From Halomarina salina (GTDB lineage: Archaea > Halobacteriota > Halobacteria > Halobacteriales > Haloarculaceae): DNA of 64,000 nt. The notes under the pieces are model-generated. The model did not search any database and was not told where the DNA came from. It worked only from the letters and a program-made list of their open reading frames with translations. The stretch lies in NCBI RefSeq assembly GCF_023074835.1, contig NZ_JALLGW010000001.1, positions 2,728,001-2,792,000 of the forward strand, in the 5' to 3' direction. This document shows, in pieces, positions 6,321-47,868 of the stretch (position 1 is its first letter; each line of letters begins with the position of its first letter). The translations under genes and the position numbers were made by a program.

Positions 6321-9197
6321 ATGGTCTCTGTGAGTTACCGACGTGCTCTTCTCACACGTTGGTCCAGCAGGGACCGGCTTGCAGTACTCATCGTAGCGGT
6401 CGCGACCGCATTCCTCGTGGGAGCAGTCGTCGTATTGCTCGCTGTCTCAGGGTACACGACGACGATTGCAGGCAATCTTGGATCGGAGACAGCAGTCGAA
6501 TTGACCAGCGATGCTGCAGGTGCAGGTGATGGTACAACGTTTCCAATCACAGCAGTCTCGGTCAATGGAGAGCCCTACACACTTCTTGGCGTGCCCACTA
6601 CAACGTCACAGGACATTGCAGTTCCAAACGGTGTTGCCGGGCCACTATCCGGTAGGACCGTCACAATCGCTGGCGAGCAAACCACGCTCGAAAGGGGGGT
6701 GGTCAAGCGCAGTGATGACACGCCTTTCCCCGATTCATGGCTCATCACGGATGCATCAACGGCTCGGGAACTGGGAGCTGATCGGGCCCTCGTCATTCGC
6801 GAGTCATCCGATCCAGTTCCGCAATCTGGTGCTCCACTGATTGGCGCTCTTGCGTTCTTTATCGCCGGTACACAGCAAGTACTCGGCCTCTTGACCGTTG
6901 TGTGTGCTGGCGCAGCCGTTCTCATCGGCGTCATCATCTTCAGCGTAACCCGCATGACGGTTCGCGAACGTCGGGAAACACTTCGCGTGTTGCGCGCGAC
7001 TGGAGCGACTCAACGTACCGTCCTCATGCTGGTCGCCGCTCGGGCAGGACTCCTCACACTCATCGGTATCGCCCTTGGCTATGCATTCGGGGTGATTATT
7101 CCGAATGCAGCAGCGAACATCGCCATTACGCTCGGGTTCCCGATTGGCCTTCCGATGGCGATGAGCGCTCAGACAGCGCTCGTTGTTGCCGGAATGCTTG
7201 GGGCACTCGTCTGTGTTGGCATCCTTGCAGGTGGGCTCGCTGGACGGCAGGTCGTCAGCGGAGAGCCACTTGATGTGAAGAACAATTCATCCCGACGATG
7301 GCCCGGTGGCCCCTCGTTTCTGCCGAGTGGAGCGGTCGTGCCAACGACGGCAACGCTCGCTGTCTTCATCGCGTTCGTACTTGTCGTCTTCTCGCTTGGT
7401 GGAGTCGTCGGCAGTGTAGGCGCGACAGACCAGCAGGGCGGGACGATTGTTGCGCCGAATGCGGTCCACCCAGTTGCAAGTCAGGTCGATGTGGCCTATG
7501 CTGAGGCACTACAGCGCGCTGGCACAGCCGCAAGTCCGGAGATACTGCTCTTTCAGGTGTCTGATGGCCATCCGTTCCCCGCCCGAGGCGTCCAGTTTGA
7601 CGCCTATCAGAATGTCACAGACGCCAAACTCGTGGCAGGCCGAGCACCGAATGCAACTGACGATGACGAGGCAGTCATTGGCACCGACCTCGCCACGACT
7701 CTGGGAGTTGGCCCTGGAGACGAACTCGCACTGGGGGGGTCCACGAAAGCCGGGGTGGCGACGGTAGAGATCGTCGGGACGTTCTCGGCGAGTGGGGCAG
7801 CTGATGACCACCTCCTCGTGTCCCTGCCGGTCGCTCGGCATCTCTCGACGGTCCGACAGGGGAAGGTGAACCTCATTCGCCTCGCTGATCGGCCCCAGCG
7901 TGGGGCGCGTGGGGGTGTCGCCGTTCTCGACGTGAGCACCCCCAGACAGGTCGTTGCGGGCGAACAGCTACCAGTTCGAGTGCAGGTGCGTAACGTAGGG
8001 CAGGACACGACGACCGAGACGCTCCGAGCGACGTTTGGCTCACAGGAACAGTCTACACAGATATCGCTCACAGCCGACCAGCAACGGACGGTGACATTCC
8101 GTTTCACTGCGGAAGACCCGGGTACACAGACGATTCGCGTCGGAGAGACGAACCAGTCGGTTCGGGTCGTCACACCGACTGCATTGCGATTGTCACAGGT
8201 GCCGAAAACAGCACCACCAAATGCCACGTTCGAGCTTCGAGTTACGACGGCGACTGGGCAGTCGGTTTCGAACGCGACGGTCACACTCGGTGACCGCTCG
8301 GTGGGCACGACTCCCAAAGGAAGGGCCCGGGTCCAGCTACCAACTGCCGATGGGACCTACAGCCTCCGTGTCGTGGCCGGTAATCGCTCAGTGTCACGGC
8401 AACTACGGGTCAACGAAGACGTACAGCGAACCCCGACCGTCCAACTCTCGATGGTGAACGAGACCGGAGTGTTGACCGCTCCGACAGCGCGCGTGCGTGT
8501 CTCGAATCCGTGGTCTACTCCACAGACAGCGTCGGTCTCGGTATCCGGGCCTGGCGCGACAGTCAACCAAGCAGTTCGACTGGCACCAGGCGCATCCAAG
8601 GCGGTCGCTGCAAATCTCGAGCGTCGGCCCCCTGGAACCTACACCGTAGAGGCGACGGTCAATGGAACCACGATCGAACAGCAGTATCGAGTGACGGGTG
8701 ATGAGCGCCTCGCCAGTGCAATTGCATCGAGTGGCCGCGTCTCAGGCGGCGTGGGAACGAGTGGGTTCATCGCCAGAGCCTTCGGGAATATCGGGCTCGT
8801 GTTAGCGACACTGCTCGGCCTCGGTGTTGTGATGACCGTCGGGAGTACCATCGCCTCATTTGCAGACGCCGTGCAGGCCCGTCGCCGTGATATCGGCGTG
8901 CATCGAGCTGTCGGTGCTGGGCCGCTGCAGGTGGGCAAATTGGTTCTCAGTGATGCACTGCGAATCGCCATCCCTGCCGGTCTCGGTGGCGCGCTGCTTG
9001 CGGTCATCACGCTCACCGCATTGTCGTGGGCTGGCGCCCTGACCGTGTTCGGCGTCCAGCTTGCCCCGCAGGCTCCGCTTGCTCTGATCGGTGGTATCGT
9101 ACTCGGTGCACTCGGCCTCGCACTCGTCAGTGCGGTCATGGTCGTTGCTCGGTACGTAAGAGCCGACCCATCCCGACTGTTCGGAGGTAGCCAATGA
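6321..9197 (+). CDS. ABC transporter permease, FtsX/MacB type, with large extracellular Ig-like insert
   Basis: The 958-residue protein begins with a TM helix (residues 20-45) and an extracellular loop. FtsX-like helices follow (about 170-300), including the cytoplasmic TVRERRETLRVLRATGA motif typical of FtsX coupling regions. A long outside region (about 350-790) contains a MacB-periplasmic-core-like stretch (GTDLATTLGVGPGDELAL) and then several beta-rich CARDB/Ig-like repeats. It ends with three more FtsX helices (RRRDIGVHRAVGA, about 850). Its stop overlaps the next start (ATGA), and the partner ATPase is two genes down. It likely exports or releases a lipid-linked or surface molecule, or acts mechanically on surface proteins rather than importing solute. 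The substrate is unknown. Confidence 0.85.
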   Translation: MVSVSYRRALLTRWSSRDRLAVLIVAVATAFLVGAVVVLLAVSGYTTTIAGNLGSETAVELTSDAAGAGDGTTFPITAVSVNGEPYTLLGVPTTTSQDIAVPNGVAGPLSGRTVTIAGEQTTLERGVVKRSDDTPFPDSWLITDASTARELGADRALVIRESSDPVPQSGAPLIGALAFFIAGTQQVLGLLTVVCAGAAVLIGVIIFSVTRMTVRERRETLRVLRATGATQRTVLMLVAARAGLLTLIGIALGYAFGVIIPNAAANIAITLGFPIGLPMAMSAQTALVVAGMLGALVCVGILAGGLAGRQVVSGEPLDVKNNSSRRWPGGPSFLPSGAVVPTTATLAVFIAFVLVVFSLGGVVGSVGATDQQGGTIVAPNAVHPVASQVDVAYAEALQRAGTAASPEILLFQVSDGHPFPARGVQFDAYQNVTDAKLVAGRAPNATDDDEAVIGTDLATTLGVGPGDELALGGSTKAGVATVEIVGTFSASGAADDHLLVSLPVARHLSTVRQGKVNLIRLADRPQRGARGGVAVLDVSTPRQVVAGEQLPVRVQVRNVGQDTTTETLRATFGSQEQSTQISLTADQQRTVTFRFTAEDPGTQTIRVGETNQSVRVVTPTALRLSQVPKTAPPNATFELRVTTATGQSVSNATVTLGDRSVGTTPKGRARVQLPTADGTYSLRVVAGNRSVSRQLRVNEDVQRTPTVQLSMVNETGVLTAPTARVRVSNPWSTPQTASVSVSGPGATVNQAVRLAPGASKAVAANLERRPPGTYTVEATVNGTTIEQQYRVTGDERLASAIASSGRVSGGVGTSGFIARAFGNIGLVLATLLGLGVVMTVGSTIASFADAVQARRRDIGVHRAVGAGPLQVGKLVLSDALRIAIPAGLGGALLAVITLTALSWAGALTVFGVQLAPQAPLALIGGIVLGALGLALVSAVMVVARYVRADPSRLFGGSQ

Positions 9198-10831
9198 GTC
9201 CACGACGCCGTCTCGACCTGGTACTCGTGCTTGCTGTGATCGCGGTCGGAGTCGCGACTCGACTACTGCCGTTGCACTTCTCGCCGCTGCCGTTCAACAC
9301 TGATGCGTTTGTATTCGTTCGGTATAGCGAACTGATCCTGCAGAACAATCACCTCGCGTTCAGTGGCCCCGCAGCACCATACCCCGACGAGTACCTGTTC
9401 GACATGCTGCTCGCGATGGTGAGCGAAGTGGTCGGGATGTCGCCTCTCTATCTCGTCCAAATACTCATCGCCTGCCTAGCTATCGTCCCCTCGCTTGTCG
9501 CAGTCGCGTATGCGCGGTCACTTACCGCAGATCTCCCACGGGCGCATCGGCGAGGGGCGATGGCACTCGCCGGGATTGGACTCTCTGTAGAGGGGCTCTA
9601 TCTGTGGCGAACAGCGACGATCAGCAGCGAGGTCTACGGTCTATCGTTTATCGCATGCATCGTGCTCTCGCTTCATCGAGGGCTCCAGACCGGGTCGCGA
9701 CGCTGGCTCGCTCTCACAGCCATTCTGAGCGCGCTGATGCCCATCGTCCACAATGGGAGCACGTTCGTCGTGGGGCTCATCGGTACCGTCCTAACCGCAC
9801 TCGCCGTGGGTCGTCAGTTCACGATTCGTCGTGCGCTCGGTGGGACGATTGGCGTCGTTGGATTCTGGGCGCTCGCGTTCGGGTATTACGAAGTCGTCGA
9901 GCTACCGAATGCCGCGACCATCTCTGCAGCGCCTGGGCTGTTTATCGCCTGGACGATTCTCATCGTTGGGGTGGCCCGATGGCTCGACCGAACATCTCCA
10001 CGAGTGCAGCGTGGAGTCCCGGTTACTGTATTCAGCCTCGGCGTGCTCGTGTTCACGTTCAACGCGTTCGTCCCTGTGTTCCCCGGGATGCCGACAACAT
10101 CGATCTGGTTACTGATCTACACCGTTCCGCTCGTCACTCTCCTGGTTGTGGCCGCTGTTGGCATTCCCTGGGTAACCACCAAGCAGAGTCAGGGCATCGC
10201 GATGGTCGCAGTCGTCATCGCTCCTCTCGCTGCCATTGGATTCGCACTAACCGGGGGGCGAACGCCCGAATATCAGGCACTGCTCACTCGCTCGACGACG
10301 TTTATGCATCTGGGAGTGGTTGTCATCGCAGCCGTCGCACTCGCGATACTCGCTCACCGACGACCGACGCTTGGTCGTATGGCTACAGTCATCGTCGTGA
10401 TTGCAATACTCATCTCCGCGCCATTTCCATTCGCTGGCCTCGGGACGATTCCGTTCGAGGCCGTCACCGAGCCGACCGAGTTCGAGACGGTGATGTTCGC
10501 GACCGAGCACATGAATGGTACGTGGGCAAGTGACGATCACTTCACTCACATCGGCACGAAGTACCGGGGTGCAAACGTGGTCGATACTCCGACAAGCGCC
10601 TGGCTTCGGGGGGACGCTTCGCAGCCTGCTTGTCCAACGATTGGCCGTGAAATATGGACGACGCGGGGAGCGCCAGCAGTACCGAAACCGCTGTCACTAT
10701 CCACGGCCGCATACGAGCAGTGGGTAATGACAGGGGACATCATCTATAACGGTGGAGGGAGTGAGTCGACGGTCGTTCGGTGGGTGAACGGCCAGTGTGA
10801 GCAGTCGGTCCTCAGTGAGGGGACGCGATGA
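9194..10831 (+). CDS. Multi-pass membrane protein, GT-C/STT3-like
   Basis: The 545-residue protein has about 11-13 predicted TM helices and a short outside C-terminal domain (from about residue 425). The first loop (LPFNTDAFVFVRYSELI, then YPDEYLFDMLLA) carries acidic residues in the place where GT-C glycosyltransferases and STT3 oligosaccharyltransferases have their catalytic loop. I infer a membrane glycosyltransferase or a related lipid-sugar enzyme. It overlaps both neighbours by 4 bp (ATGA), so it is encoded inside an ABC-transporter operon and is probably functionally tied to it. No WWDYG-type STT3 motif is visible, so oligosaccharyltransferase activity is not supported. Confidence 0.65.
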   Translation: MSPRRRLDLVLVLAVIAVGVATRLLPLHFSPLPFNTDAFVFVRYSELILQNNHLAFSGPAAPYPDEYLFDMLLAMVSEVVGMSPLYLVQILIACLAIVPSLVAVAYARSLTADLPRAHRRGAMALAGIGLSVEGLYLWRTATISSEVYGLSFIACIVLSLHRGLQTGSRRWLALTAILSALMPIVHNGSTFVVGLIGTVLTALAVGRQFTIRRALGGTIGVVGFWALAFGYYEVVELPNAATISAAPGLFIAWTILIVGVARWLDRTSPRVQRGVPVTVFSLGVLVFTFNAFVPVFPGMPTTSIWLLIYTVPLVTLLVVAAVGIPWVTTKQSQGIAMVAVVIAPLAAIGFALTGGRTPEYQALLTRSTTFMHLGVVVIAAVALAILAHRRPTLGRMATVIVVIAILISAPFPFAGLGTIPFEAVTEPTEFETVMFATEHMNGTWASDDHFTHIGTKYRGANVVDTPTSAWLRGDASQPACPTIGREIWTTRGAPAVPKPLSLSTAAYEQWVMTGDIIYNGGGSESTVVRWVNGQCEQSVLSEGTR

Positions 10832-11496
10832 CCGACGATACCGTCATCACTGCTCGCGATATCTCCGTCTCACGTGGTGGCGAACCAGTCCTCGATGAAC
10901 TCTCACTTACCATTCCGAGTTCAGCTCGAACCCTCATTCAGGGTGCGAGCGGGGCCGGGAAGTCTACGCTGTTCTCTGTGCTCGGCCTGCTGTCGACCCC
11001 TGATTCTGGAACTCTCAAGATAGATGGCGATGACGCCGCGACGCTACCCGAACGAAAGCGAGCGGCCCTTCGTCGAAATCACCTTGGGTTTGTCTTCCAG
11101 GATTTCAAACTCATAGATGATCTCACAGCGTTCGAAAACGCTCGGGTTCCACAGGAGCACGCTGGCGAACTCGATGAAGACTGGCTCAACTCATTGTTCG
11201 ATCAACTGGGGATTGCACCGCTCACCCATCGACTCCCACCGACGCTCTCTGGAGGGGAACGCCAGCGAGTCGCGATTGCCCGTGCGCTCGCCAATCGACC
11301 AAGCGTCATCCTCGCAGACGAGCCAACGGGCCAGTTAGACCCACAGACGACCGACGACGTCCTCGACACGCTGTTTTCTGTTCACGAGACGTTCGATACC
11401 GCAGTCGTCGTCATCAGTCACGATACGCAGCTCAGTGGTGCATTCGATGAACAGTATACCCTCGCCGATGGAACGCTCAATTCGGGCGGTTCGTGA
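10828..11496 (+). CDS. ABC transporter ATP-binding protein, MacB/LolD type
   Basis: The 222-residue ATPase has Walker A (GASGAGKST, residues 39-47), the signature LSGGERQRVA, Walker B (VILADEPTG) and a switch His (VISHD). Length and the LTAFENARVP region match the LolD/MacB/FtsE branch that partners FtsX-type permeases. Start and preceding stop overlap by 4 bp. It would energise the 958-residue permease. An IS-end remnant begins right at its stop codon, but the C-terminus (YTLADGTL) looks intact. Confidence 0.9.
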   Translation: MTDDTVITARDISVSRGGEPVLDELSLTIPSSARTLIQGASGAGKSTLFSVLGLLSTPDSGTLKIDGDDAATLPERKRAALRRNHLGFVFQDFKLIDDLTAFENARVPQEHAGELDEDWLNSLFDQLGIAPLTHRLPPTLSGGERQRVAIARALANRPSVILADEPTGQLDPQTTDDVLDTLFSVHETFDTAVVVISHDTQLSGAFDEQYTLADGTLNSGGS

Positions 11497-11924: not shown

Positions 11925-12452
11925 TTAGCGTACGAGCCATCGAATCCCTGGGTATCGGTCATGAGCCCAGAGGCCCAGTACAGCGAGGGTTAATGCGAGG
12001 CCGAACAGGGTGAACGGGTCAGGGGTGACGTTCACGAAGTGTTCGATAAAGCCTGAGTCGTTCTCATAGGGGGGCGGGGGTAAGAGCGGCCATGCGAGAA
12101 ACGTGAGGAACTCCGTGTCTAATTGCAAGATTGGCAGTAAGGCATCCCCGAGGAGATGGGCACAATAGCCGATCGAGAATGCCCACGCAGGCGTTCTGTA
12201 GCCATATCGACGGGACACCACGATAGCGATGCTGCAGATGATTGTTGCAATGAAGATCGAATGGGCGAACGATCTCCCCGAGGGGAGCACATTGAGAGAC
12301 CACGCAAGCGGCTTGTCGATGAGGTCTGGAAACTGCGTGCCGAGCGCCACTGCAATCGCTGGACCGTCGCCTGGCGGCCATGATTGATCACGACTATGCC
12401 GAGCGACCCGATAGATGAGATAGCCGAGCGCCGCATGCCCCCATGGCCACAT
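11925..12452 (-). CDS. Membrane-bound metal-dependent hydrolase (YdjM/DUF457-like)
   Basis: The 175-residue protein starts MWPWGHAALGYLIYR. It has the family pattern of an N-terminal His in the first helix (GHAALGYL), a GTQFPDLIDKP acidic motif, RSFAHSIF and a CAHLLGDAL motif, which together bind a metal at the membrane surface. Four TM segments are expected. Family members are annotated as inner-membrane hydrolases of uncertain substrate. All metal-binding motifs appear present, unlike in the fragment next to it. The start is the ATG at 12452. Confidence 0.75.
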   Translation of the reverse strand: MWPWGHAALGYLIYRVARHSRDQSWPPGDGPAIAVALGTQFPDLIDKPLAWSLNVLPSGRSFAHSIFIATIICSIAIVVSRRYGYRTPAWAFSIGYCAHLLGDALLPILQLDTEFLTFLAWPLLPPPPYENDSGFIEHFVNVTPDPFTLFGLALTLAVLGLWAHDRYPGIRWLVR

Positions 12453-13957: not shown

Positions 13958-14233
13958 ATGAGGTTGCAACGTCGCCAGCGGTTTGTCTTCGGTCATTTGA
14001 CGGCGACGTGTTCGGCGATAATCCTTCTGGCAGCACTGGGAAGCCTGACACTGGAACTCGTGTTTGTTATCTCACTGATTGCGTTTCTTGTGCTCGTCGA
14101 GCTGACTGCACCTATAGCAGTTACCCCTCGCTGGCGGTCACGCCTGAAGTGGGTTATCGCCGCTGGGTTGCTCGTCTTTGCGTATCTCGTCATCAAGCGA
14201 ATTCTGGAGATCCTCCCTCCAGGGGTGATCTGA
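13958..14233 (+). CDS. Small membrane protein heading the DUF4350-MoxR operon
   Basis: The 91-residue product has three predicted TM helices (about 13-35, 35-52 and 62-85), separated by a basic TPRWRSRLKW loop. I do not recognise a named family from sequence alone. It ends 4 bp before the DUF4350 gene and is therefore probably co-transcribed with it and with moxR. The tnpB pseudogene ends only 26 bp upstream of its ATG, so the native promoter may have been displaced or replaced. Confidence 0.6.
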   Translation: MRLQRRQRFVFGHLTATCSAIILLAALGSLTLELVFVISLIAFLVLVELTAPIAVTPRWRSRLKWVIAAGLLVFAYLVIKRILEILPPGVI

Positions 14234-14237
14234 GCCG

Positions 14238-15404
14238 ATGCGGACAGATCTCCCACGGATCGCACTGTGGGTACTCACTGGAGTCGTTCTCCTGGGGGTC
14301 GTCGTTGGCGCTAGTACGTCGGGAGCAGCGTACGGTGCGTTCAATCCCTCGTGGGACGGTGGTAGTTCACTTCGAACAATCGCCGAGAGCCAGGGGACCG
14401 ATGCGGTCTACATTCAGGAGGCAACGGAGTATCGCTCGCTCTCCAGTGAGAGTGTCGCGTTCATACTCGCGCCCGATGAATCTTACAGTCCGAACGAGTC
14501 TGCCCAGGTGCAATCGTTCGTTGAGCGTGGGGGGACAGTCGTCGTTGCTGACGACAGCACGGGCTCGAATAGCCTTCTCGCATCGGTCGGGGCATCGAGC
14601 CGTGTTGATGGGCGACTCGTCCGTGACGAGCGACGGTACTACCGCGGGCCCGCGTTACCAGTTGCGACGAACGTGACAGCACTGAATCGCTCAACGCAAC
14701 CGGATGAGTCAGCCACTGCATCGAATCTCACGGCCTCCATCGACCGACTGACGCTCAACTACGGGAGTGTCTTGCAGCCTGGGAACGCGACCGTCCTCGT
14801 CTCCACGTCGGAGTTCGCGTATCTGGACTCGAATCGGAACGAGGAACTCGACGATACGGAGACACTGGCCAGTCGGCCTGTCGCAACGGTCGAATCCATT
14901 GGTGAGGGACACGTCGTGACGGTGAGTGATTCGAGTGCGCTCATCAACGCGATGCTCGACCGGCAGGACAATCGTGCGTTTATCGAGAATCTCATCTCCG
15001 GGAGCGATCGCGTCGCACTCGACTATTCGCATACAGCCAGTCTACCACCACTCGCGTACGTGCTGGTGACGTTTCGGGCGTCACTCCTGTTCCAGCTCTG
15101 GGTGGGTATCCTCTTCATCTGGGCGATTGCTGTGTATCTCTACTGGCCCACGCTACGTGAACAGCCGGCACTCCGCCGACTCCGACACCGCATTCATGGT
15201 ACCAATGAACAGATCTCACCTCGCCTCGATGCAGAGACAGCGGCAACAGCACTTCGACGGCGGCGACCAGACTGGGATGAAGACCGCATTCAGCGAGTCG
15301 CGACTGCGCTCGGTGGTGAAGGACCACGGGATCCATGGCGCGGAACTCGAACGAGTCGAGCTCAGCGTGGGGAAGACCCCTCCGATGAGCCATCCGAGAA
15401 TTGA
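14238..15404 (+). CDS. DUF4350 domain protein
   Basis: The 388-residue protein has an N-terminal TM anchor (residues 8-25). An outside domain follows with the DUF4350 pattern (AVYIQEATEYRSL, FILAPDESYSP, FVERGGTVVVADD). A second TM helix near residues 278-300 (LFQLWVGILFIWAIAVYLYW) precedes a basic, Arg-rich cytoplasmic tail. DUF4350 proteins are constant companions of MoxR ATPases and DUF58 proteins and are thought to be assembly or scaffold components at the membrane. The fold is related to GATase-like domains. It lies between the small membrane protein and moxR. Confidence 0.8.
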   Translation: MRTDLPRIALWVLTGVVLLGVVVGASTSGAAYGAFNPSWDGGSSLRTIAESQGTDAVYIQEATEYRSLSSESVAFILAPDESYSPNESAQVQSFVERGGTVVVADDSTGSNSLLASVGASSRVDGRLVRDERRYYRGPALPVATNVTALNRSTQPDESATASNLTASIDRLTLNYGSVLQPGNATVLVSTSEFAYLDSNRNEELDDTETLASRPVATVESIGEGHVVTVSDSSALINAMLDRQDNRAFIENLISGSDRVALDYSHTASLPPLAYVLVTFRASLLFQLWVGILFIWAIAVYLYWPTLREQPALRRLRHRIHGTNEQISPRLDAETAATALRRRRPDWDEDRIQRVATALGGEGPRDPWRGTRTSRAQRGEDPSDEPSEN

Positions 15405-15496: not shown

Positions 15497-16504
15497 ATGA
15501 GTGCGCGCGACCCTGAATCGCTTTACAATGCGCTCCGGAAGGAGATGGGAACGGTCCTCATCGGGAAAGACGACGTAGTAGAGGGCCTCACCATCGCGCT
15601 TCTCACACGTGGGCATGTTCTGCTGGAAGGTGTCCCAGGCGTCGCGAAGACGACGATCGCCAATCTATTTGCCCGAACGACTGGCCTCCAGTATACCCGT
15701 ATCCAGATGACGCCGGACGTCCTTCCGGCAGACGTGGTGGGAACGACTGTCTACCGCGAATCCACCAGTGAGTTCGAACTTCGGAAGGGGCCGATATTTG
15801 CCAACGTAGTCGTCGCCGACGAGATCAACCGCGCGACGCCAAAGACGCAATCTGCACTCCTGGAGGCGATGGCAGAGCGAAACGCGACAATCGACGGCGA
15901 GACGCTCAGCTTGCCCGACCCGTTTGTCGTTGTAGCAACGCAAAATCCGATTGAGATGGAGGGGACCTTCGAATTGCCAGAAGCACAGCGTGACCGCTTC
16001 TTGTTCCAGCTTGACGTCTCGCTACCAACTCGCGACGAAGAACGCGAGCTCCTGAACGAGTTCGACAGAGCTCCTACACTCGGCCCCGACGCAGTTGAAC
16101 GAGTCGTTACCCCGAATGACCTGCTGGAGGCCCGAGAGATGGTCGAGTCCGTTCACGCTGCTCCAGAGTTGAAAGAGTACATTCTGGATATCGTCGGGGC
16201 CAGCCGCGACACTGCGGATACGCGTCACGGTGGATCACCACGAGCATCGCTGGCGTTTTTGAACGCTGGGAAAGCTCGGGCAGCGATTCACGGTCGTGAG
16301 TATGTGATTCCCGACGACGTCAAAGCGCTCGCCCAGTCCGTACTCGCCCACCGACTCGTATTAAGCACGGACGCAGAGCTCAGCGATCTCAGTGCCCGGG
16401 AAGTCGTCGATGAAATCGTTGGGTCGGTCGAACCACCGGGAAGCGATACCGAGGCAGTAGAGTCCGTTCCGGTCAGTGATGGCGGCGATGCTTCGGAGCA
16501 ATAG
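15497..16504 (+). CDS. MoxR-family AAA+ ATPase
   Basis: The 335-residue ATPase shows Walker A (GVPGVAKTT, residues 45-53), Walker B (VVVADEINRA), sensor I (VVATQNP) and an Arg-finger region (LPEAQRDRFLF), all canonical for MoxR. These chaperone-like ATPases work with DUF58 (VWA-like) proteins in maturation of complexes. The gene follows DUF4350 by 92 bp. The DUF58 operon runs toward it from the other side (70 bp gap), so the module is complete but convergently arranged. Confidence 0.95.
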   Translation: MSARDPESLYNALRKEMGTVLIGKDDVVEGLTIALLTRGHVLLEGVPGVAKTTIANLFARTTGLQYTRIQMTPDVLPADVVGTTVYRESTSEFELRKGPIFANVVVADEINRATPKTQSALLEAMAERNATIDGETLSLPDPFVVVATQNPIEMEGTFELPEAQRDRFLFQLDVSLPTRDEERELLNEFDRAPTLGPDAVERVVTPNDLLEAREMVESVHAAPELKEYILDIVGASRDTADTRHGGSPRASLAFLNAGKARAAIHGREYVIPDDVKALAQSVLAHRLVLSTDAELSDLSAREVVDEIVGSVEPPGSDTEAVESVPVSDGGDASEQ

Positions 16505-16573: not shown

Positions 16574-17452
16574 TCAGCTTGAGCTGGCCTCTGCTCCCTC
16601 CCACGTGAAGACGAGGCGCGCATCGTACCGGTCGTCATCCGACTTCTGGACAGTGACCGCTATTGGGGTCTCGAGCTGGGTTGTGAGCCCGACAGCGACC
16701 AGTGACGTAACTGGATGGTCGAGTGCGGACAGCGGTGTGATTTGTGCCCCGGCACACCCGATAGCGAGGCGGCCCGATTCGACGTCAGGCTCAGCCCTCG
16801 CGAGGAGTTCGAACTGTTCGATGGCTGCATCCGTGAGTGCCTGTGCAAGTGGGGCTGGCCCCTCCGGGACGGGCCCCGAATGCGCGCGCTCGAACGACTC
16901 GTACAGCGTGTTCCCCGTCGGCTTGAGCGACAGTCCGCGTTCACGAGTGTTGTCCGTCGTGACAAAGGGCGTGCTGAGCGCATCGGCGGCCGGTAGTTCA
17001 TAGTCGTCATACTGCGGGAGGTACAGTCGGGTGTCATCGCCCGCTCGAAGGTACACGCGCTTCTCGCTCAATCCCAGATCAGCGGCAATAGCGGCCATGT
17101 TATCGGAGTGCGTCCGGGAGACCGCTTCACCAATGCTCGCCGGAACGAACGACTCAGGAGTGAGGTAGAGGGTCATCACGGCCGCGAACAGCCCCGTACC
17201 ACCAATAGCGAGTAGTATCGTTCGAACGCCGGGAAAGAGTGTCCCACCAGCAAGTGCGAGCAGCCCAATTACTCCAAACCCGACTGCAGTTCGGCGATAG
17301 CGCTGGCGCTGTGCGTCGTGGTATGCCGCTCGGAGCCGCTCGTTTTCTGACCGAAGGGCTTCAACCTGCGCGAGCATGTCAGCCCGGTCGAGGTCGTCGT
17401 GGTCGCTCGCGTCGGTCGTGGCCGGTCGGTCTGCAGTGGCTGACTCACTCAT
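16574..17452 (-). CDS. Haloarchaeal membrane protein of the MoxR/DUF58 locus
   Basis: The 292-residue protein has an acidic, coiled-coil-prone N-terminus (MLAQVEALRSENERLRAAYHD cut here for length: LAQVEALRSENERL, residues 28-45). Two TM helices follow (about 55-75 and 80-100), then a soluble domain with LYLTPESFVPASIGEAVS and RLYLPQYDDYELP. I do not recognise a characterised function. It is third in an operon behind DUF58 and a small membrane protein, with a 4-bp overlap, and such proteins accompany DUF58 in other haloarchaea. Confidence 0.7.
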   Translation of the reverse strand: MSESATADRPATTDASDHDDLDRADMLAQVEALRSENERLRAAYHDAQRQRYRRTAVGFGVIGLLALAGGTLFPGVRTILLAIGGTGLFAAVMTLYLTPESFVPASIGEAVSRTHSDNMAAIAADLGLSEKRVYLRAGDDTRLYLPQYDDYELPAADALSTPFVTTDNTRERGLSLKPTGNTLYESFERAHSGPVPEGPAPLAQALTDAAIEQFELLARAEPDVESGRLAIGCAGAQITPLSALDHPVTSLVAVGLTTQLETPIAVTVQKSDDDRYDARLVFTWEGAEASSS

Positions 17453-17964
17453 GAGGGCTCCTCTCGCTCGCCGCTGTCAGTGACGAGTCCCAGCATCACT
17501 CGCTCATACCGGTGGGCCCCATATCCGAGTACTGCAATCGCTGTCACGGTCGCGAGCGTGGCGAGCCAGGGTGGCCAGTTCATCCACGCCCCATACGCGA
17601 GGCCAGCAATCACGCCTGTGACTACCGAGAACACAAGGACGCCGAGAAGTGGACGTCCTGTACTATCGAGTCCTGCGACTGCGATGAGCGCGAGCCCACC
17701 TCCGGTAACGAGGAGTGTCAGGGTACTGGAGGGGGCGAACAGGCCAACGAGCAGCACACAAACGGTGAGTGCAACAGGCGTGGCAAGCGTTACGGCGGCG
17801 ATGATTGCGACTGGCATCGCACCCAGTGCAAGGAAGTCGCCTGACAACGCGAGTCCGCCAGCAACAGCGAAGCCACCCAGCGAGGCAACCATCGTCCCCC
17901 ATGTGGTACCCGTCCGCCCCACAGTCGATGTGCCGTCTCGCAACTCGCTCGTGATTGGACTCAT
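17449..17964 (-). CDS. Multi-pass membrane protein between DUF58 and DUF58-partner gene
   Basis: The 171-residue product has five or six hydrophobic helices and almost no soluble domain. It overlaps both neighbours by 4 bp (ATGA at 17961-17964 and 17449-17452), showing a tightly coupled operon. The function is unknown; position suggests a membrane anchor or channel-like subunit of the DUF58/MoxR system. Confidence 0.7.
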   Translation of the reverse strand: MSPITSELRDGTSTVGRTGTTWGTMVASLGGFAVAGGLALSGDFLALGAMPVAIIAAVTLATPVALTVCVLLVGLFAPSSTLTLLVTGGGLALIAVAGLDSTGRPLLGVLVFSVVTGVIAGLAYGAWMNWPPWLATLATVTAIAVLGYGAHRYERVMLGLVTDSGEREEPS

Positions 17965-19412
17965 GCAGTTCGCCCCCGTCGCGACCGTCGACTGTCAAGT
18001 ACGGCAGCAAGCCGTGCCCCCGGTGCAATCTCGTATGCTTCCACGCGGTCGAGACCAGCTAACGACCGTCTGAACTCCTCGAACTCGAGATACGAATCGT
18101 AGGCAGACCCCAGATCGGCGAGTCCCCCCGATTCGAACAACGTTCGGGGGGCGAGGAAGACAGTCACGAGACTGTCTGCCTGACGAGCCAGCTTGACTGT
18201 CTCTCGGATCTCACTGCGATTGCTATCGGTCGTGAAGATGACCGTGTGCGTGACGCTCTTCGCCGCCCGTCTGGCCGCCGCAAACAGCGGGTCCTGGCCG
18301 ATTCGCTCGACATAGCGTTCGCTCGCCTCGAAGTATGGAGCGAGCAGTTGTGCGAACTGGTCTGAGTTAGTTGTGGATGCAGAAAGTGTCGTTGCAGCTC
18401 GTCGAGCCGCTGCTGGTGACCGGCGCTCCTGTGAGGAGTCCAGTGCAGTGTCGTCGAGCGCTGTCGGTTCTGTCGGTGTGAGCGTGGTCAGATGCCGACG
18501 AATCCGGTTGTAGCCCGACTCCGAGGCCGAGACCGGGAACCGACCGGTAATCCCCGCATCTCCGACTGTGAAACACCCGACCGGGTCATCGACAGTGTCT
18601 GCCTTCTCGACGATGGCGAGTGCGACTTCGCGGATGAACTCTTGGGCCGTCTCGCCGGGCTGACCAACGACCGTTGATCCACGGTGATCGACGAGAAGCA
18701 TGGAATCGCGATCCGTTTCTGCCTGATACTCTCGGACCTGTGTGGTCTGGGTTCGGGCAGTGGCCTTCCAGTCGATTTGCCGGACTGAATCCGTGGGGAC
18801 GTACTCCCGAATCGACTCGGGTTCTACGCCCCCACCAGATGGGCGGATAGCTTCGTGTTCGCCGTAACCGGATGCAATCTCCTGGCCTCCCTGGCCGATG
18901 TGGATATCATCCGGAACGCGTGGCTGAACCTGGATACGACGGCGCTCGCCGCGAGTAATCGACTCCCAGAAGAGGTCACCATCTGTCACCACGATATGAG
19001 GGCAATCGAACGTCGCCACTCCGGCGACCGAGAGGCGGACAGTGACTGTCGTCGCTGCGTCTCGGTGTGTGTCTGAGAGCTCGATTCGCTGCTGGCCTTG
19101 CGATGGCGTCTCAGCAACAACTGGTGGCTGGAGCGTGATGGAACTGGTGAGTGCTGTTGGCCGCTCAATGGTTGCACTGAGCGTCACTGGCGTCTCCGTG
19201 TCTGGTCGTACTGCCGATGGAATCGACTGCCTGACTGTCAGTGCATCGTCGAACGTCGAGAGTGCTGTAACGAACAGTACGGCACGAGCGAGCAGCCACG
19301 CCCCTAGGAGGGCTGTCCCTGCGAACAACAGCCACGACCGGAGAATCACGGCGAACGCGGCGAGACCACCGACGAGCCCAATGGTGGCCCAGCCGCGACG
19401 CGTGAGATGCAT
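17961..19412 (-). CDS. DUF58 domain protein
   Basis: The 483-residue protein has two N-terminal TM helices (about 10-50) and a beta-rich region. It carries the DUF58 signature EPESIREYVPTDSVRQIDWK (about residues 197-216), followed by a VWA-like segment (DSMLLVDHRGS). DUF58 proteins are the standard partners of MoxR ATPases; the MIDAS-like site would bind metal or protein partners. It heads a three-gene operon convergent with moxR. The start is the ATG at 19412. Confidence 0.92.
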   Translation of the reverse strand: MHLTRRGWATIGLVGGLAAFAVILRSWLLFAGTALLGAWLLARAVLFVTALSTFDDALTVRQSIPSAVRPDTETPVTLSATIERPTALTSSITLQPPVVAETPSQGQQRIELSDTHRDAATTVTVRLSVAGVATFDCPHIVVTDGDLFWESITRGERRRIQVQPRVPDDIHIGQGGQEIASGYGEHEAIRPSGGGVEPESIREYVPTDSVRQIDWKATARTQTTQVREYQAETDRDSMLLVDHRGSTVVGQPGETAQEFIREVALAIVEKADTVDDPVGCFTVGDAGITGRFPVSASESGYNRIRRHLTTLTPTEPTALDDTALDSSQERRSPAAARRAATTLSASTTNSDQFAQLLAPYFEASERYVERIGQDPLFAAARRAAKSVTHTVIFTTDSNRSEIRETVKLARQADSLVTVFLAPRTLFESGGLADLGSAYDSYLEFEEFRRSLAGLDRVEAYEIAPGARLAAVLDSRRSRRGRTA

Positions 19413-29471: not shown

Positions 29472-29842
29472 CGATGGAACCGCGACCACAACCGGGTATC
29501 AACGACACCGTTGGAGTTCTGCGTTCGCCATTGAACCGGCTACAGTCACGACCACGCGATGGTGAGGGGTGGGGTCGTGAGACAGATAGAGTATTGATTT
29601 GATAACGGGTAGGCAGAGGTCGTTTATTCACCCCGACTCCGAGAGCGGACCGGACCACACTCCAACCGTCGAGGGCAGCTACATGGATATCTACCGGGGA
29701 CCGAGAAGATATGCACGCCAGATATCTGCCGCCAATGCCCGCGAACGAAGCACTCACGAGCGCCAAATTATGACATATCAACGACTAATGTGGCTCTTAG
29801 AAGTCAACTGATTTATCCCAATTGAGGGTCTCCACCGAATCA
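29472..29842. other. Intergenic region, nothing recognised
   Basis: There is no gene that I can support in 371 bases. The right part (29700-29820) becomes AT-richer and should contain the promoter of the DUF1616 gene. The second boundary of the RAMP cassette probably lies here. Confidence 0.4.
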
Positions 29843-30931
29843 ATGGATGCCCGATTGCTGCTCCCCCGTCCGGTTCGTCGGCTTCCCGCCGACCTCGCAG
29901 CAATCATCGTGCTGACGCTGGTGACCGACCTCTTCGTTCTCGCGCCGGTCCTCAACGAGACCCCGGTTCGCATTGGGCTCGGGCTGGTGTTCGTGTTGTT
30001 CGCCCCAGGCTATGCCTTCATCGCCGCGTTGTTTCCGGAAGCAGGCGAGGGCCCAACACACACTGGAAACGCTGAATGGAACGATGGTGCTGTCGATGAG
30101 GTCAGTGAGGGAATCGACGGCATCGAACGGCTCGCGCTCTCGCTGGGGACGAGCATCGCAATCGTTCCGCTCATCGGATTGGTACTGAACTTCACCCCCT
30201 TCGGGATTCGGCTGGTGTCCATCGTGGTGAGTTTGAGTGCGTTCACGCTCGGCGTGAGTGTCGTCGGGGCGATGCGGCGGTGGGCCCTCCCTGCCGATGA
30301 ACGCCTCGTCATCCCGTATCGTGAGTGGATCGCGGGGACGCGCTCGGAGTTGTTCGAACCCGATTCGCGTGGTGATGCGCTCCTAAACGTTGTCCTGGTG
30401 CTCAGTCTCCTCCTTGCTGTATCGAGTGTTGGCTATGCGGTACTGGTACCAACACAAGGCGAGCAGTTCACTGAGCTGTATCTGCTCACCGAGAACGAAA
30501 GCGGGGACCTCGTTGCTGATGACTATCCCACGAACCTCACTCAGGGCCAGAGTGCGTCGCTGTACGCCGGAATCGGGAATCACGAAGGCGAGACGGTAGA
30601 TTACACACTGGTGGTCGAACTCCAGCGCGTGAATGTGACCTATCTCGAGAACGGGACAGCGGTCCAGCCGTCCTCGAATCAGACGAACGTGACGAACGTC
30701 TCTGTTGACGTTCGGGAGCAAGCAGAACTACGGCGATTCACCCCTAGCGTCGGGTCGAATGAGACGTGGCAACGGAACCACACGTTCACCCCACCGTTTG
30801 CTGGTGAGCGACTGCGACTCGTCTATCTACTGTACAAGGAAGACGTCCCAGAAAACCCGACAACGGAGAACGCCTATCGAGAAGTGCATCTCTGGGCCAA
30901 CGTCTCCGGCGACCAATCAGGTTCCAACTAG
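29843..30931 (+). CDS. DUF1616 membrane protein
   Basis: From the ATG at 29843 (MDARLLLPRPVRRLP) the product has 362 residues. Four TM helices lie in the first 210 residues (LGLVFVLFAPGYAFIAALFP, LSLGTSIAIVPLIGLVLNF and two more), matching DUF1616. A C-terminal outside beta domain has many N-glycosylation sequons (NLT, NVT, NQT, NVS, NHT). DUF1616 proteins occur in haloarchaeal cell-surface glycan loci and with DUF4350-type genes; function is unknown. Confidence 0.8.
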   Translation: MDARLLLPRPVRRLPADLAAIIVLTLVTDLFVLAPVLNETPVRIGLGLVFVLFAPGYAFIAALFPEAGEGPTHTGNAEWNDGAVDEVSEGIDGIERLALSLGTSIAIVPLIGLVLNFTPFGIRLVSIVVSLSAFTLGVSVVGAMRRWALPADERLVIPYREWIAGTRSELFEPDSRGDALLNVVLVLSLLLAVSSVGYAVLVPTQGEQFTELYLLTENESGDLVADDYPTNLTQGQSASLYAGIGNHEGETVDYTLVVELQRVNVTYLENGTAVQPSSNQTNVTNVSVDVREQAELRRFTPSVGSNETWQRNHTFTPPFAGERLRLVYLLYKEDVPENPTTENAYREVHLWANVSGDQSGSN

Positions 30932-36426: not shown

Positions 36427-37377
36427 GTGACCAACAGTGTGAACCTTACCGGAAAGAGAATACTCGTCACTGGAGGTGCTGGGTTCATTGGCTCGAATCT
36501 CGCCAATTCGCTCGCTGAAGACAACGACGTCGTCGCCGTCGACGATGGCTATCTCGGTACCCCAGAGAACCTCAACGATGACGTAGAATACTACGAGGCA
36601 AGCGTCCTCGATGACGAACTCCCCACCGATGTTGACGTGCTGTTCCATCTGGCTGCGCTCTCGTCGTACAAGATGCACGAAGAAGACCGGATGAAAGGGG
36701 CGAAGGTCAATATTCTCGGCTTCATCAACACCGTTGAGCAGGCGATGGAGGATGGCTGTGACACCGTGGTCTATGCGTCGACCTCCTCGATCTATGGGAG
36801 TCGGACGGAGCCGTCTCCGGAGGACATGGACGTGACTGTGAACACGGGGTATGAAGCGTCAAAGATGGCACGCGAGAACTATGCTGAGTACCTCGCGAAT
36901 CACTACGGCCTCAATATGGCTGGGATGCGCTTTTTCTCGGTCTATCAGGGCTACGGCGGCTCAGAGGAACACAAAGGTGAGTTTGCGAACGTCATCGCGC
37001 AGTTTGCTGATGATCTTGCAGACGGCGACGCTCCGGTTTTGTTCGGTGATGGCTCCCAGACGCGGGACTTCACCCACGTTGATGACATCGTTCGTGGACT
37101 TAGCGCTGCCGCAGAGCATGAGTTGACGGGAATCTACAACTTGGGCACTGGCGACGCAACGTCGTTTAACGAACTCGTTGAGATGCTCAACGACGAACTC
37201 GGGACGGATATCGAACCAGAATACATCGAGAACCCCATCCCTGAGAGCGTGTACGTCCATGACACAATGGCTGACTATTCGAAAATGAACGCGGAGACAG
37301 GGTGGGCGCCACAAATTTCATTAGAAGCAGGTATCCAGCAGGTTTGTCAGCAATACGTGCCGAACCCCTCTCAGTAA
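36427..37377 (+). CDS. NAD-dependent sugar epimerase/dehydratase (GalE-like SDR)
   Basis: The 316-residue protein is an extended short-chain dehydrogenase. The Rossmann motif is GGAGFIGSNLANSL (residues 15-28) and the catalytic pair is Tyr/Lys in GYEASKMA (about 141-148) with an upstream Ser/Thr (YASTSSIYG). The C-terminal substrate part has DFTHVDDIVRG. It interconverts nucleotide sugars, for example UDP-glucose/UDP-galactose, for surface glycans. The start is a GTG at 36427 (another GTG is at 36439). It lies beside the origin and upstream of the glycan genes. Confidence 0.9.
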   Translation: MTNSVNLTGKRILVTGGAGFIGSNLANSLAEDNDVVAVDDGYLGTPENLNDDVEYYEASVLDDELPTDVDVLFHLAALSSYKMHEEDRMKGAKVNILGFINTVEQAMEDGCDTVVYASTSSIYGSRTEPSPEDMDVTVNTGYEASKMARENYAEYLANHYGLNMAGMRFFSVYQGYGGSEEHKGEFANVIAQFADDLADGDAPVLFGDGSQTRDFTHVDDIVRGLSAAAEHELTGIYNLGTGDATSFNELVEMLNDELGTDIEPEYIENPIPESVYVHDTMADYSKMNAETGWAPQISLEAGIQQVCQQYVPNPSQ

Positions 37378-37424
37378 CCAGAGCACCACTTACTGTACTT
37401 CTACTAACACTCTATCGACAAGTG

Positions 37425-38088
37425 AGAGTACATTTCGTCTGTTCCGGTGGGCAGGTGCCACGGGTAGATACCAAGTGTATGAGAAATGTCGAGACACGGC
37501 CGCTCGGAGAGATATGCCATATTCACCCATTAGCTCCCGAATTGAGCAGGTAAACAGACGAACTGTACTCTTTCACAACCAATAGTAAACTGGCAAGGTT
37601 ACTTTCTAAGCGATTGGCTTTGTGGCGATATTTCTCCCTCAGAGGGGATTAGAAAGAGAGTACATTTCGTCTGTTCCGGGGCTGCTGAATGACTACTGAA
37701 GGATGCCAGAAAGGGGGTTTTGAAGACGCTCAGTCCCTCCTCGCGCAGCGGCGTGCAGAGCGAGTGAGGCGTGGAAGTGCACTATGAGAAGTGCACAGTG
37801 GATGCTCATCTAGTAACCGGGGGTAACTAACCATTAGAAAGAGAGTACATTTCGTCTGTTTACCTGCTAGCTGAGGCTCAGCATTCGTGAGTCTCAGGTA
37901 CGTCCGATTCAAAAGGAGTGCCTCAGAGGGGCAACCGATTATTGACGACAGAGGCTGACAGCAGCGACATCTTCAGCTCACAAATTGCAGCAGATTATAA
38001 AAGATCCAGAGACCACTAAGGGTATCGAGTAGCTCCCAAAGAACCGCTCGTCTATCATTCTGGTCAAAAACAGACGAAATGCACTCTC
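37425..38088. other. Replication origin: repeat-bearing intergenic region beside orc1/cdc6
   Basis: Five copies of a 20-base repeat, consensus AACAGACGAAMTGTACTCTC, lie here: 37425-37444 (-), 37553-37572 (+), 37656-37675 (-), 37841-37860 (-) and 38069-38088 (+). Two more lie beyond the orc gene at 39457 and 39603. Copies 1 and 3 are followed on their outer side by GG-rich sequence (CCGG, CCGGGG), like the G-string of archaeal origin recognition boxes. With an Orc1/Cdc6 gene starting the cluster at its right, this is almost certainly an origin. A candidate unwinding stretch is the AT-rich part around 37580-37640 or 37980-38010. Confidence 0.85.
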
Positions 38089-38106
38089 TTCGTGATTACA
38101 GCGACA

Positions 38107-39324
38107 TTATTCGGAGGGTGAAGTAATCGAATCGTTACCCAGTTCGAGATCGTTACGCGTTTCGAGGACTATGGATGCGTCCAGATCCAACTCGTATTCG
38201 AAATAGTGTCCACCACTACGGCCTTCGTTTCTCTCATGTTGGGTGAAGAACCCCAGCATGTGGAGCTCTGAAAGATGGCCTTGAATACTCTTCAGAGTAG
38301 TCAGAGGGTCTCTGTCCCAGGAGTGCGCTACGGTCTCGTACGTCGCCATGACTTGCTTGGAACGGGCAGGCGTCTTTCCGTCTTGTTCGAGTCTAGCAAC
38401 GGCTTCGAGAACAAACTGTGCATGCTTAGTCTGGTCGCTGATGCGGTTTTGCAGCCTCCCCCGTTGCACAAGCGTCCGAGCCCGAGTGATGTGGGTGTCA
38501 GTGACCTGTGAGTCGCCATTCTTCTCTGCAACCTCGGCCCCCACACGAAGCAGGTCAATCGCCTGGCGTGCGTTGCCGACGTCTTGTGCAGCGATTGCGG
38601 CGGCAGCCCTGATAGCAGACGAATCGTATCCACCTTCTACAAATGCGTTCTCTGCCCGGTCGTTGAGAATGGTCTGAAGTTCAGTTGCGTTGTACGGGGT
38701 AAACGCAATCTCAGCCTCCATCAGCGTATCCTTGACCTTTGGCGAGAGTGACTTGCGGAACGTGTAGTTGTTACTAATACCGATGATTCCGACTCGCGCA
38801 TCATCGAGATAGTCGTTCGAACGTGCCCTTGGAAGTTCGTACAGGAGGGTATTCGCATCGTCAATGTGGTCGATTTCGTCAAAGACAAACAGATGAGTTC
38901 CACCGAGTCTTTCTAGTTGCTGGTATAGCGTCTCGAAGGCATCCCCGGTACCGAGACCGCGGCGAGGGAATGAACTCGCCTCTTCGGGAAGAATTTCGTT
39001 GACTAGTGTCCGGGCCACCATGAACAGCGACTTGCCGTTACAATTGACCGTGTGGATGAAGAGATCGTCGGCCTGCTCGCGAGTCTCGACCTCCTCATTG
39101 AGTGCATCCATCATATACATCGTCACGGCCGTCTTGCCAAGGCCAGCTTTGCCGTAGATCATCACATTCTCCGGATCATTTCCAAATAGAACATCACGGA
39201 GCGCGTGTCGGTACTCGTCGATTTCTTTGTCCCGCTCAAGAATCTGCTCCGGTTGATACTCCTCTTGGAGAACGCTCTTGTCTGCGAATATTGTGTCCGT
39301 GATATCGCTAAATGGCCCGGACAT
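38107..39324 (-). CDS. Orc1/Cdc6 replication initiator
   Basis: The 405-residue AAA+ protein has Walker A (GKAGLGKT, residues 58-65), Walker B (LFVFDEIDHID, about 150), sensor I (GISNNYTFR), sensor II region (GNARQAIDLL) and a C-terminal winged helix. It binds the flanking repeats and loads the replicative helicase. It is flanked on both sides by the same repeat family, as expected for a cognate initiator-origin pair. Haloarchaea carry many such pairs, so I give no paralogue number. The start is the ATG at 39324. Confidence 0.93.
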   Translation of the reverse strand: MSGPFSDITDTIFADKSVLQEEYQPEQILERDKEIDEYRHALRDVLFGNDPENVMIYGKAGLGKTAVTMYMMDALNEEVETREQADDLFIHTVNCNGKSLFMVARTLVNEILPEEASSFPRRGLGTGDAFETLYQQLERLGGTHLFVFDEIDHIDDANTLLYELPRARSNDYLDDARVGIIGISNNYTFRKSLSPKVKDTLMEAEIAFTPYNATELQTILNDRAENAFVEGGYDSSAIRAAAAIAAQDVGNARQAIDLLRVGAEVAEKNGDSQVTDTHITRARTLVQRGRLQNRISDQTKHAQFVLEAVARLEQDGKTPARSKQVMATYETVAHSWDRDPLTTLKSIQGHLSELHMLGFFTQHERNEGRSGGHYFEYELDLDASIVLETRNDLELGNDSITSPSE

Positions 39325-39456
39325 TGATTCTATAGCAGAGTTCGGAAGAAGGCTATTTAATTCCTTCTTTCGTTTGTTTCGTGTGTTAGTGAGTAGACAC
39401 CGTTCTCGTGAGAGGGCGTATATCGGCTGCCGATTTTGCGTATCGAACCTGTCCTA

Positions 39457-39622
39457 AACAGACGAAATGTACTCTCTGTCTCTTGACGGCGACTGGGACG
39501 GCTTTCTGTAATCTTATTGGAGGAGTTGTGTCAGAAACGATTCGCCAATCTTGCCACGTCCAAGTGTTCCAAACGCGGGCAGTGAAACTCCAGGCGGCAG
39601 AGAACAGACGAACTGTACTCTC
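39457..39622 (+). repeat. Two origin-type repeats upstream of orc1/cdc6
   Basis: Copies at 39457-39476 (AACAGACGAAATGTACTCTC) and 39603-39622 (AACAGACGAACTGTACTCTC) have the same sequence as those at 37425-38088. Both point in the same direction. They lie in the upstream region of the orc gene and may serve as origin boxes and as autoregulatory sites. Confidence 0.8.
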
Positions 39623-47850: not shown

Positions 47851-47868
47851 AGACGAACCAAGCATCAT

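Follow-up and report, generated by a model that had tools for sequence, protein, structure and literature searches.

The Type VII, or mechanotransmission, ATP-binding cassette (ABC) systems use ATP to move domains that lie outside the membrane, they do their work on its outer face, and the function of each is usually set by a partner protein (PMC12646458). Among the systems described there are YbbAP-TesA, in which a Type VII ABC system is paired with a lipid hydrolase, and BceABS, which has a membrane partner and a lipid-binding site and provides resistance to antibiotics that sequester undecaprenyl pyrophosphate; enzyme activators also belong to the class. Here, we analyze a locus of the haloarchaeon Halomarina salina, contained in a stretch of 64,000 nucleotides (positions 2,728,001 to 2,792,000 of contig NZ_JALLGW010000001.1; "the window"), in which three overlapping genes, the trio, encode an FtsX-type permease, a membrane protein with the GT-C glycosyltransferase fold and an ABC ATPase. 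We propose, with a probability of about 0.5, that these proteins constitute a haloarchaeal Type VII ABC complex whose dedicated partner in the membrane is a GT-C glycosyltransferase, and that the complex drives or gates the transfer of polyprenyl-linked sugars at the outer face. The fold, the conservation and the genomic context behind this proposal were computed, while the formation of a complex, its chemistry, its substrate and the role of ATP are inferred from them. GT-C glycosyltransferases of the outer face are generally held to be ATP-independent and driven by their activated lipid donor. Searches of the open-licence literature found no glycosyltransferase partner of a Type VII or FtsX-type ABC system, and PMC7775120 deals with a corynebacterial permease. 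The Type VII class itself is known, and what would be new is the sort of enzyme partner.

The three genes of the trio are arranged as follows.

6321..9197, plus strand: P1-type permease, open reading frame (ORF) of 958 amino acids with a probable start at GTG 6330 (955 amino acids)
9194..10831, plus strand: middle gene, membrane protein of 545 amino acids with a GT-C, STT3/AglB-like fold and a candidate catalytic Asp, D37
10828..11496, plus strand: LolD/FtsE/YbbA-like ATPase of 222 amino acids

An initial annotation of this DNA, made by a model from the letters alone, had described a three-gene operon joined by ATGA, and the ORFs, their plus strands and the 4-base overlaps at both junctions (9194-9197 and 10828-10831) are as it said. 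The GTG at 6330 is plausible as the real permease start because residue 4 of the window ORF is the exact start of the homologous ORFs at three other loci (L022, L025 and L028). The arrangement is not due to chance, since the same genes adjoin one another in many other haloarchaea (see below).

The middle protein matched nothing in Pfam or NCBIfam at E<=1 and nothing meaningful among the sequences of the Protein Data Bank (best value 0.55), and one of 11 family members reached a Pfam family, YfhO, at 1.8e-4; we take YfhO to belong itself to the GT-C class of sugar transferases. An AlphaFold2 model of the protein (pLDDT 81.8, pTM 0.85) had 27 Foldseek matches at E<=0.001, all of them either oligosaccharyltransferase (OST) entries (STT3, PglB, AglB and OST-containing translocons, for which the matched chain was taken to be STT3) or other GT-C enzymes (ArnT, AftA, AftB, ALG12 and DPY19), and Pmt4 was among the Foldseek/VIA top matches. 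Nearly the full length of the model, residues 1-532, aligned with yeast Stt3 (VIA Z 23.9, root-mean-square deviation (rmsd) 5.3 over 431 residues), and the AglB entries of A. fulgidus gave VIA Z scores of 17.6-20.1. The initial annotation had called this protein GT-C-like and had named an unrelated transporter as the identity that would speak against its proposal, and the predicted fold bears out the former. RefSeq gives the name "sodium/phosphate symporter" to at least six annotated relatives, on Haladaptatus and Natrononativus plasmids. Identity as a transporter, or as a Na+/phosphate symporter in particular, was considered and rejected: there are no Pfam matches, the significant fold matches are all GT-C or OST, and no transporter or receptor ranks higher than 32nd in the Foldseek list, where their query TM-scores are about 0.1-0.17.

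Conserved residues are consistent with an active enzyme. Among 67 full-length relatives, D37, H186, R366 and W444 are each present in 67/67, H372 and C480 each in 66/67, and position 146 is acidic (Glu or Asp) in 62/67. In the model, D37 falls in the loop region that follows helix 1 and position 146 just past loop 142-144, presumably where GT-C enzymes carry their outside acidic motifs. The protein thus combines the GT-C transmembrane fold with an invariant acidic residue in the expected first outside loop, and we regard D37, on the basis of the model, as the candidate catalytic Asp of that loop. The WWDYG motif of oligosaccharyltransferases is absent. Where the C-terminal domain begins, at 444-448, most of the 67 relatives have W444-x-[STGA]-D-[HD] instead; judging from the order strand-helix-strand, this motif may correspond to WWDYG. 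Comparison of the GT-C alignment with a small AglB alignment by hhalign, for which only 8 of 20 STT3-family loci were usable, gave no significant match (E 0.047, probability 1.1%). Elsewhere in the genome, some 72 kb before the start of the window, lies a gene of the STT3 family proper (G000:C1:2654874-2655689). Altogether, the GT-C family of the trio looks like an active GT-C enzyme, though one outside AglB/STT3 family assignment.

The window genome holds another, diverged GT-C gene copy, which was matched in two pieces with 28-30% identity (L018, at G000:C1:2862317-2863805, and L017), and the 17-kb stretch around it has no permease or ATPase match. A further short fragment, with 69% identity, lies at C1:2842830-2842937.

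Pfam recognizes FtsX twice in the window permease (1.8e-17) and, as an Ig-like domain, CARDB (8.5e-6). Among the 11 aligned relatives Pfam finds FtsX in 11, CARDB in five and MacB_PCD in one. The structure model is of low confidence (pLDDT 61.3, pTM 0.35) and contains eight long helices (residues 13-49, 172-212, 228-267, 280-309, 333-364, 810-849, 865-901 and 917-944). A small beta domain (about 55-160) lies between the first and second helices, and a beta-rich stretch extends over about 465-790, the last part of which (about 530-790; block pLDDT 73-89) is Ig-like; the placement of both on the outside is assumed. The long Ig-like region of the earlier annotation is found again, both in the CARDB match and in this low-confidence model. 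The resulting order is transmembrane (TM) helix 1, outside domain 1, TM2-4 (FtsX 1), TM5, outside domain 2 with the Ig-like domains, and TM6-8 (FtsX 2). Eight predicted TM helices in a repeated pattern suggest two LolC/LolE-type modules in a single chain, and the permease looks like such a fused pair of the Type VII ABC kind, as far as the model can be relied on: it has the FtsX-type fold and, in the model, an extracytoplasmic domain between TM helices 1 and 2 of each module.

Comparison with solved structures places the permease nearest to the Lol and MacB proteins. Residues of about 1-315 best match LolE, LolC and MacB structures (VIA Z 12.9-17.0, rmsd about 9-10 over some 300 residues), and LolC also tops the sequence-profile matches among solved structures (2.4e-5). 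YbbP was among the first Foldseek matches (8e-8; VIA Z 13.8, rmsd 11.6 over 339 residues), and the BceB structure gave Z 11.9-13.2. This last match bears on a scheme in which the ABC part handles the carrier lipid as BceAB would, removing or recycling dolichyl phosphate after transfer by the GT-C protein or clearing lipid-linked intermediates from the outer leaflet. BceABS does offer a precedent in its lipid-binding site and its resistance to antibiotics that sequester undecaprenyl pyrophosphate (PMC12646458), but BceAB is there described as being without the first outside domain, which the trio permease has (about 55-160), and the Lol and MacB matches mostly score above BceB; we consider this scheme improbable.

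The ATPase is a conventional member of its family (Pfam ABC_tran 4.3e-32), and its best NCBIfam models are LolD (4.4e-50) and then FtsE (5.7e-48), with YbbA also matched, all below the NCBI equivalog cut-offs. The Walker A, LSGGE, Walker B and SHD motifs are kept in an alignment of nine rows, so that the third component is an ATPase of the LolD/FtsE/MacB type, with Walker A, signature and Walker B, as in Type VII systems. A reading of the locus as a defense system was discarded: PADLOC gave six matches to the ATPase (best mad3, 8.7e-25), which were taken as shared ATPase domains, and none to the permease or the GT-C protein. Might the ABC complex simply regulate the enzyme, switching the GT-C protein on and off through its outside domains without handling lipid or glycan, as FtsEX does for wall hydrolases? 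FtsE is the second-best ATPase model, and enzyme activators do exist among the Type VII systems (PMC12646458). However, the best permease matches are to LolC, LolE and MacB, with LolC leading the sequence search, and these are substrate extractors and exporters; in addition, the partner is a membrane enzyme rather than a soluble hydrolase activator. Regulation of this kind appears unlikely, even if it is the foremost of the competing schemes.

The initial annotation had suggested a search for the trio in other genomes and had held that its absence elsewhere would count against its reading; the same gene set recurs across haloarchaea. In the 391 genomes of the class, the GT-C alignment matched 75 at E<=0.001, and removal of six weak, partial matches (G009, G084, G127, G130, G195 and G260) left 69, four of which carry the gene partly or in pieces (G090, G197, G320 and G340). 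The permease alignment matched 363 genomes; the 72 strong matches (E<=1e-105) were counted as the permease, and the remaining 291, at 4.3e-15 or worse, cover mostly the FtsX or CARDB part only, where listed. Both genes occur in 66 genomes, the GT-C gene without the permease in three (G197, G296 and G320), the permease without the GT-C gene in six (G216, G245, G268, G322, G331 and G334) and neither in 316. Fisher's test on the cross-tabulation of these lists, which were copied by hand, gives p = 1e-63, a value that overstates the case because the genomes are related, and that shows association rather than independent trials. Every strong match in a sample of 392 genomes of the phylum falls within the order, and outside it four genomes gave only partial matches (3.8e-6 to 8.7e-4). 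Among 23 named loci, which include the culturable genera Haloarcula, Haladaptatus and Halomarina, the permease is present in 20 and the ATPase lies beside the GT-C gene in 15; three (L045, L047 and L053) have neither within 8-kb flanks. The GT-C distances correlate with those of the upstream permeases (r 0.87, 38 loci), of the other permeases (r 0.99, 30 loci) and of the ATPases (r 0.87, 47 loci), and 0 of 2000 permutations reach these values, though simple co-inheritance would likewise produce such correlations.

Gene order was counted at 67 full-length GT-C loci from 65 genomes, in stretches of 4-22 kb, several of which end at contig ends. Of these loci, 58 have a permease in the stretch; 54 have one within 1 kb in the same orientation as the GT-C gene, and 39 have one directly upstream, at a distance of up to 200 bases. 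The ATPase is present in 48 of the stretches. Naming the permease just upstream of the GT-C gene P1 and the other kind P2, the orders seen are P1-GTC-ATPase, GTC-ATPase-P2, ATPase-P1-GTC and P1-GTC-ATPase-P2, so that linkage is kept despite reshuffling. Permeases that could be read over at least 85% of the model (38 just upstream of the GT-C gene and 30 others, mostly downstream) are divided in a tree by one split with support 1.0: one side holds 36 of the 38 upstream ones, and the other holds the full set of 30 together with the remaining two upstream ones (G181 and G099). The window permease belongs to clade P1. Both kinds are present at 15 loci, not counting G283, where one permease was read in two pieces.

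Twelve genomes without an ATPase at the GT-C locus were searched for one elsewhere (all nine with a permease at the locus, and three of the nine without), and a close ATPase was found in 10 of them. In seven of these it is neighbor (within 2 kb) to a strong permease match, which is a second one in four (G036, G135, G171 and G315) and the strong match of the genome in three (G357, G076 and G282); in the other three (G306, G343 and G355) it is farther away. The ancestor may have had P1, GT-C, ATPase and P2, and the Haloarcula loci retain GT-C-ATPase-P2. When the window genome was searched with the P2-position protein of Halegenticoccus, only the trio permease (2.4e-163) and one weak match (1.1e-4) were found, which suggests that P1 is the sole permease of the system in this genome. 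The notion of the trio as the whole unit therefore needs revision: many loci have two permease paralogs, the ATPase sometimes accompanies a second permease elsewhere, and the cluster extends past 11496. A more elaborate version of our proposal, in which a heterodimeric P1/P2 permease, one ATPase and the STT3-fold GT-C protein form an ATP-powered glycan-transfer machine, with hydrolysis driving the extraction, presentation or release of lipid-linked glycans, is a tentative possibility. To our knowledge, such a machine would be the first case of a GT-C enzyme energized by an ABC motor.

On the chromosome of Halomarina halobia (NZ_CP119992.1; L037 and L048), the region from the permease to DUF58 occurs twice. 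In one copy the permease and GT-C genes were matched only in pieces, while the identity of the ATPase and YdjM to those of the window is equal in both.

Beyond the ATPase, the window continues with genes that recur at other GT-C loci; the counts given here refer to presence at the 67 loci.

11925..12452, minus strand: YdjM-family membrane protein, a recurrent neighbor (Pfam YdjM 1.3e-12; in the stretch at 23/67)
13958..14233, plus strand: small 91-amino-acid protein preceding DUF4350 (23/67)
14238..15404, plus strand: DUF4350 protein (Pfam DUF4350 1.1e-30; 24/67)
15497..16504, plus strand: MoxR AAA ATPase (Pfam AAA_3 2.4e-61; 23/67)
16574..17452, minus strand: conserved 292-amino-acid protein of the DUF4350-MoxR-DUF58 block (no Pfam match; 25/67)
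17961..19412, minus strand: DUF58 protein (Pfam DUF58 2.7e-19; 26/67)
29822..30931, plus strand: DUF1616 membrane protein (Pfam DUF1616 3e-117; DUF1616 in the stretch at 31/67)

The order after the ATPase is YdjM, the small protein, DUF4350, MoxR, two uncharacterized proteins and DUF58. The same block follows the trio in four other genomes of the genus that were examined (L019, L022, L023 and L024) and follows P1-GT-C on a plasmid of Haladaptatus caseinilyticus. The 24 loci with DUF4350 span nine genus labels and four family labels, many being from a single genus label (g6). DUF4350-MoxR-DUF58 was rejected as a private part of the system, since DUF4350 is found in 31 of 40 relatives (many of the matches weak) and the GT-C gene in 11 of the same 40; being commoner, it is a module of wider distribution that is repeatedly found next to the trio. 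Homologs of DUF1616 lie near the permease in other genera and are matched in Haloferax volcanii and Methanosarcina acetivorans as well. The window genome has five DUF1616 matches, and with four more besides the one listed, the link of that gene to the trio is uncertain. For Haloferax volcanii, N-glycosylation of a DUF1616 protein has been reported (PMC8241124).

Between the YdjM gene and the gene for the 91-amino-acid protein, at 12642-13931, lie ORFs that by eye look like a broken TnpB/IS605-type element in three pieces; Halomarina rubra (L031) has almost no gap at this place. On the other side of the trio, a family 2 glycosyltransferase frame at 3262-4675 (minus strand) is seemingly split, with Pfam Glycos_transf_2 on a 235-amino-acid piece, and adjoins a HEAT-repeat protein (4642-5589).

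Some 25-43 kb from the trio the window contains a surface-glycan island, recognized through Pfam.

36427..54073, strand not assigned: surface-glycan island, comprising the following
36427-37377: epimerase
40604-41851: GT2
42017-43039: nucleotidyltransferase
43190-44365, 49733-50914 and 50981-52072: GT4-type genes
44575-45954, 46534-47868 and 48297-49691: sulfatases
52541-54073: flippase-like protein

A Cdc6/Orc1 gene (38107-39324) lies inside the island, and beyond it is a TnpB-like gene at 60141-61457 (OrfB_IS605, with a Cas12f1-like TNB domain). The island is not adjacent to the trio, and can be tied to it by analogy only, through its likeness to loci of Haladaptatus: at four other plasmid loci of that genus, the genes that follow P1-GT-C include GT2, additional glycosyltransferase genes and sulfatase-like ones, and three of these stretches also contain a flippase. 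The three sulfatase-family genes among the glycosyltransferases of the window (44575-49691), as in Haladaptatus, suggest a sulfated or otherwise modified surface glycan.

At four of the five Haladaptatus plasmid loci viewed, a PGF-CTERM protein is encoded beside P2. Two such proteins (L085:405-1427 and L088:3425-4450), each beside the second permease, carry N-x-S/T sites and, ahead of the C-terminal anchor, a stretch rich in Thr and Ser. It is possible that this protein is a glycoprotein acceptor. One could go further and suppose that the complex glycosylates and then lifts a lipid-anchored glycoprotein, such as the PGF-CTERM protein, in a Lol-like release. The choice of LolD as the best ATPase model and of LolC/LolE as the best permease folds would fit, but a single-membrane archaeon has no outer membrane as the destination, and no PGF-CTERM gene was seen directly beside the window trio, where a search aimed at the PGF-CTERM signal was not made. 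We hold Lol-like release to be improbable too, about as much so as the handling of carrier lipid.

How well, then, does a Type VII ABC complex with a GT-C partner account for these observations? In its favor are the GT-C fold, the invariant D37 and the mostly acidic position 146, the YfhO match of one family member, a permease and ATPase of the LolCDE/MacB/YbbAP kind, the permease in 66 of the 69 GT-C genomes, the kept linkage, the displaced ATPases, the glycosyltransferase and sulfatase neighbors with the similar island of the window, and the precedent of YbbAP-TesA. Several results weigh on the other side. The permease model is poor (pTM 0.35), and the relatedness and co-inheritance noted above temper the p value and the correlations. 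One genome with a full GT-C gene (G296) has no strong permease and no ATPase at E<=1e-60, and another with both permease and GT-C gene (G224) has no ATPase at that threshold; these are the two in which the search for a displaced ATPase found none. Neither DUF1616 nor DUF4350 is confined to this system. Finally, a permease is missing from the stretch at nine of the 67 loci, of which eight carry one family label (f7), and thus co-transcription is not universal. Such unlinked loci (one at least, G155, is at a contig end) would fit a GT-C protein that is a free-standing surface glycosyltransferase, co-transcribed with an ABC system of some other function. Yet a strong permease is found elsewhere in eight of the nine genomes, all except G296, so that co-occurrence outlasts linkage, and it seems doubtful that shared regulation is all that joins the genes; we rate that explanation a little below FtsEX-like regulation and above the two Lol- and BceAB-like schemes.

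If the GT-C protein and the ABC proteins do act as one complex, we propose the following scheme. At the outer face, the GT-C protein would accept a sugar or glycan from its carrier, a polyprenyl (dolichyl) phosphate, and transfer it to a surface-coat acceptor that is anchored in the membrane, perhaps a glycolipid, a polysaccharide precursor or a lipid-anchored protein. ATP binding and hydrolysis would move the outside Ig-like domains of the permease, and this movement might either raise the acceptor or the product at the surface of the membrane or open up the GT-C protein for catalysis. The DUF1616 and DUF4350-MoxR-DUF58 proteins could serve as accessory or assembly factors. The interpretation first suggested for this DNA is supported in part: the fold, the Asp, the conservation and the several loci among glycosyltransferase and sulfatase genes speak for it, the coupling of glycan transfer to ABC action is a putative one, and the picture of a trio was incomplete.

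The conserved combination of an ABC system with an OST-like protein suggests that the sugar coat of the cell surface is built with an ATP-coupled step not described before. Such a pairing would mean either that the assembly of archaeal surface glycans includes a step that depends on ATP and takes place outside the cell, or that glycosyltransferases are, like hydrolases, regulated by Type VII ABC systems. The system consists of three or four genes and could be deleted in culturable genera (Haloarcula, Haladaptatus and Halomarina). In addition, the public name "sodium/phosphate symporter" can be corrected for the relatives that bear it.

Each of the known systems resembles the trio in part. The middle protein is like STT3/AglB in its near-full-length fold match and in the acidic residues at expected outside loops 1 and 2, and differs in being without WWDYG and in coexisting with a genomic STT3-family gene. 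BceAB-BceS likewise joins a Type VII ABC system to a membrane-embedded partner, but that partner is a histidine kinase, and the permease has a 10-helix fold and no first outside domain (PMC12646458). LolCDE shares with the trio its best ATPase model, LolD, and its best permease matches, LolC and LolE, and the two permease paralogs with one ATPase at many loci also recall it; here, each permease is a fused pair of FtsX modules and the partner is a GT-C protein, and no LolA-like chaperone gene was noticed among the neighbors scanned with Pfam. In comparison with YbbAP-TesA, the partner is a membrane GT-C protein rather than a soluble esterase (no TesA-type esterase was found among the Pfam-scanned window proteins, a genome-wide search not having been made), many GT-C loci have two permease paralogs, Ig-like domains are added, and the permease has eight predicted TM helices as against the 10 of YbbP (PMC12646458). 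Despite these differences, YbbAP-TesA is the closest precedent and shares with the trio a one-chain FtsX-type permease with two outside domains, a separate LolD-like ATPase and a co-encoded extracytoplasmic enzyme.

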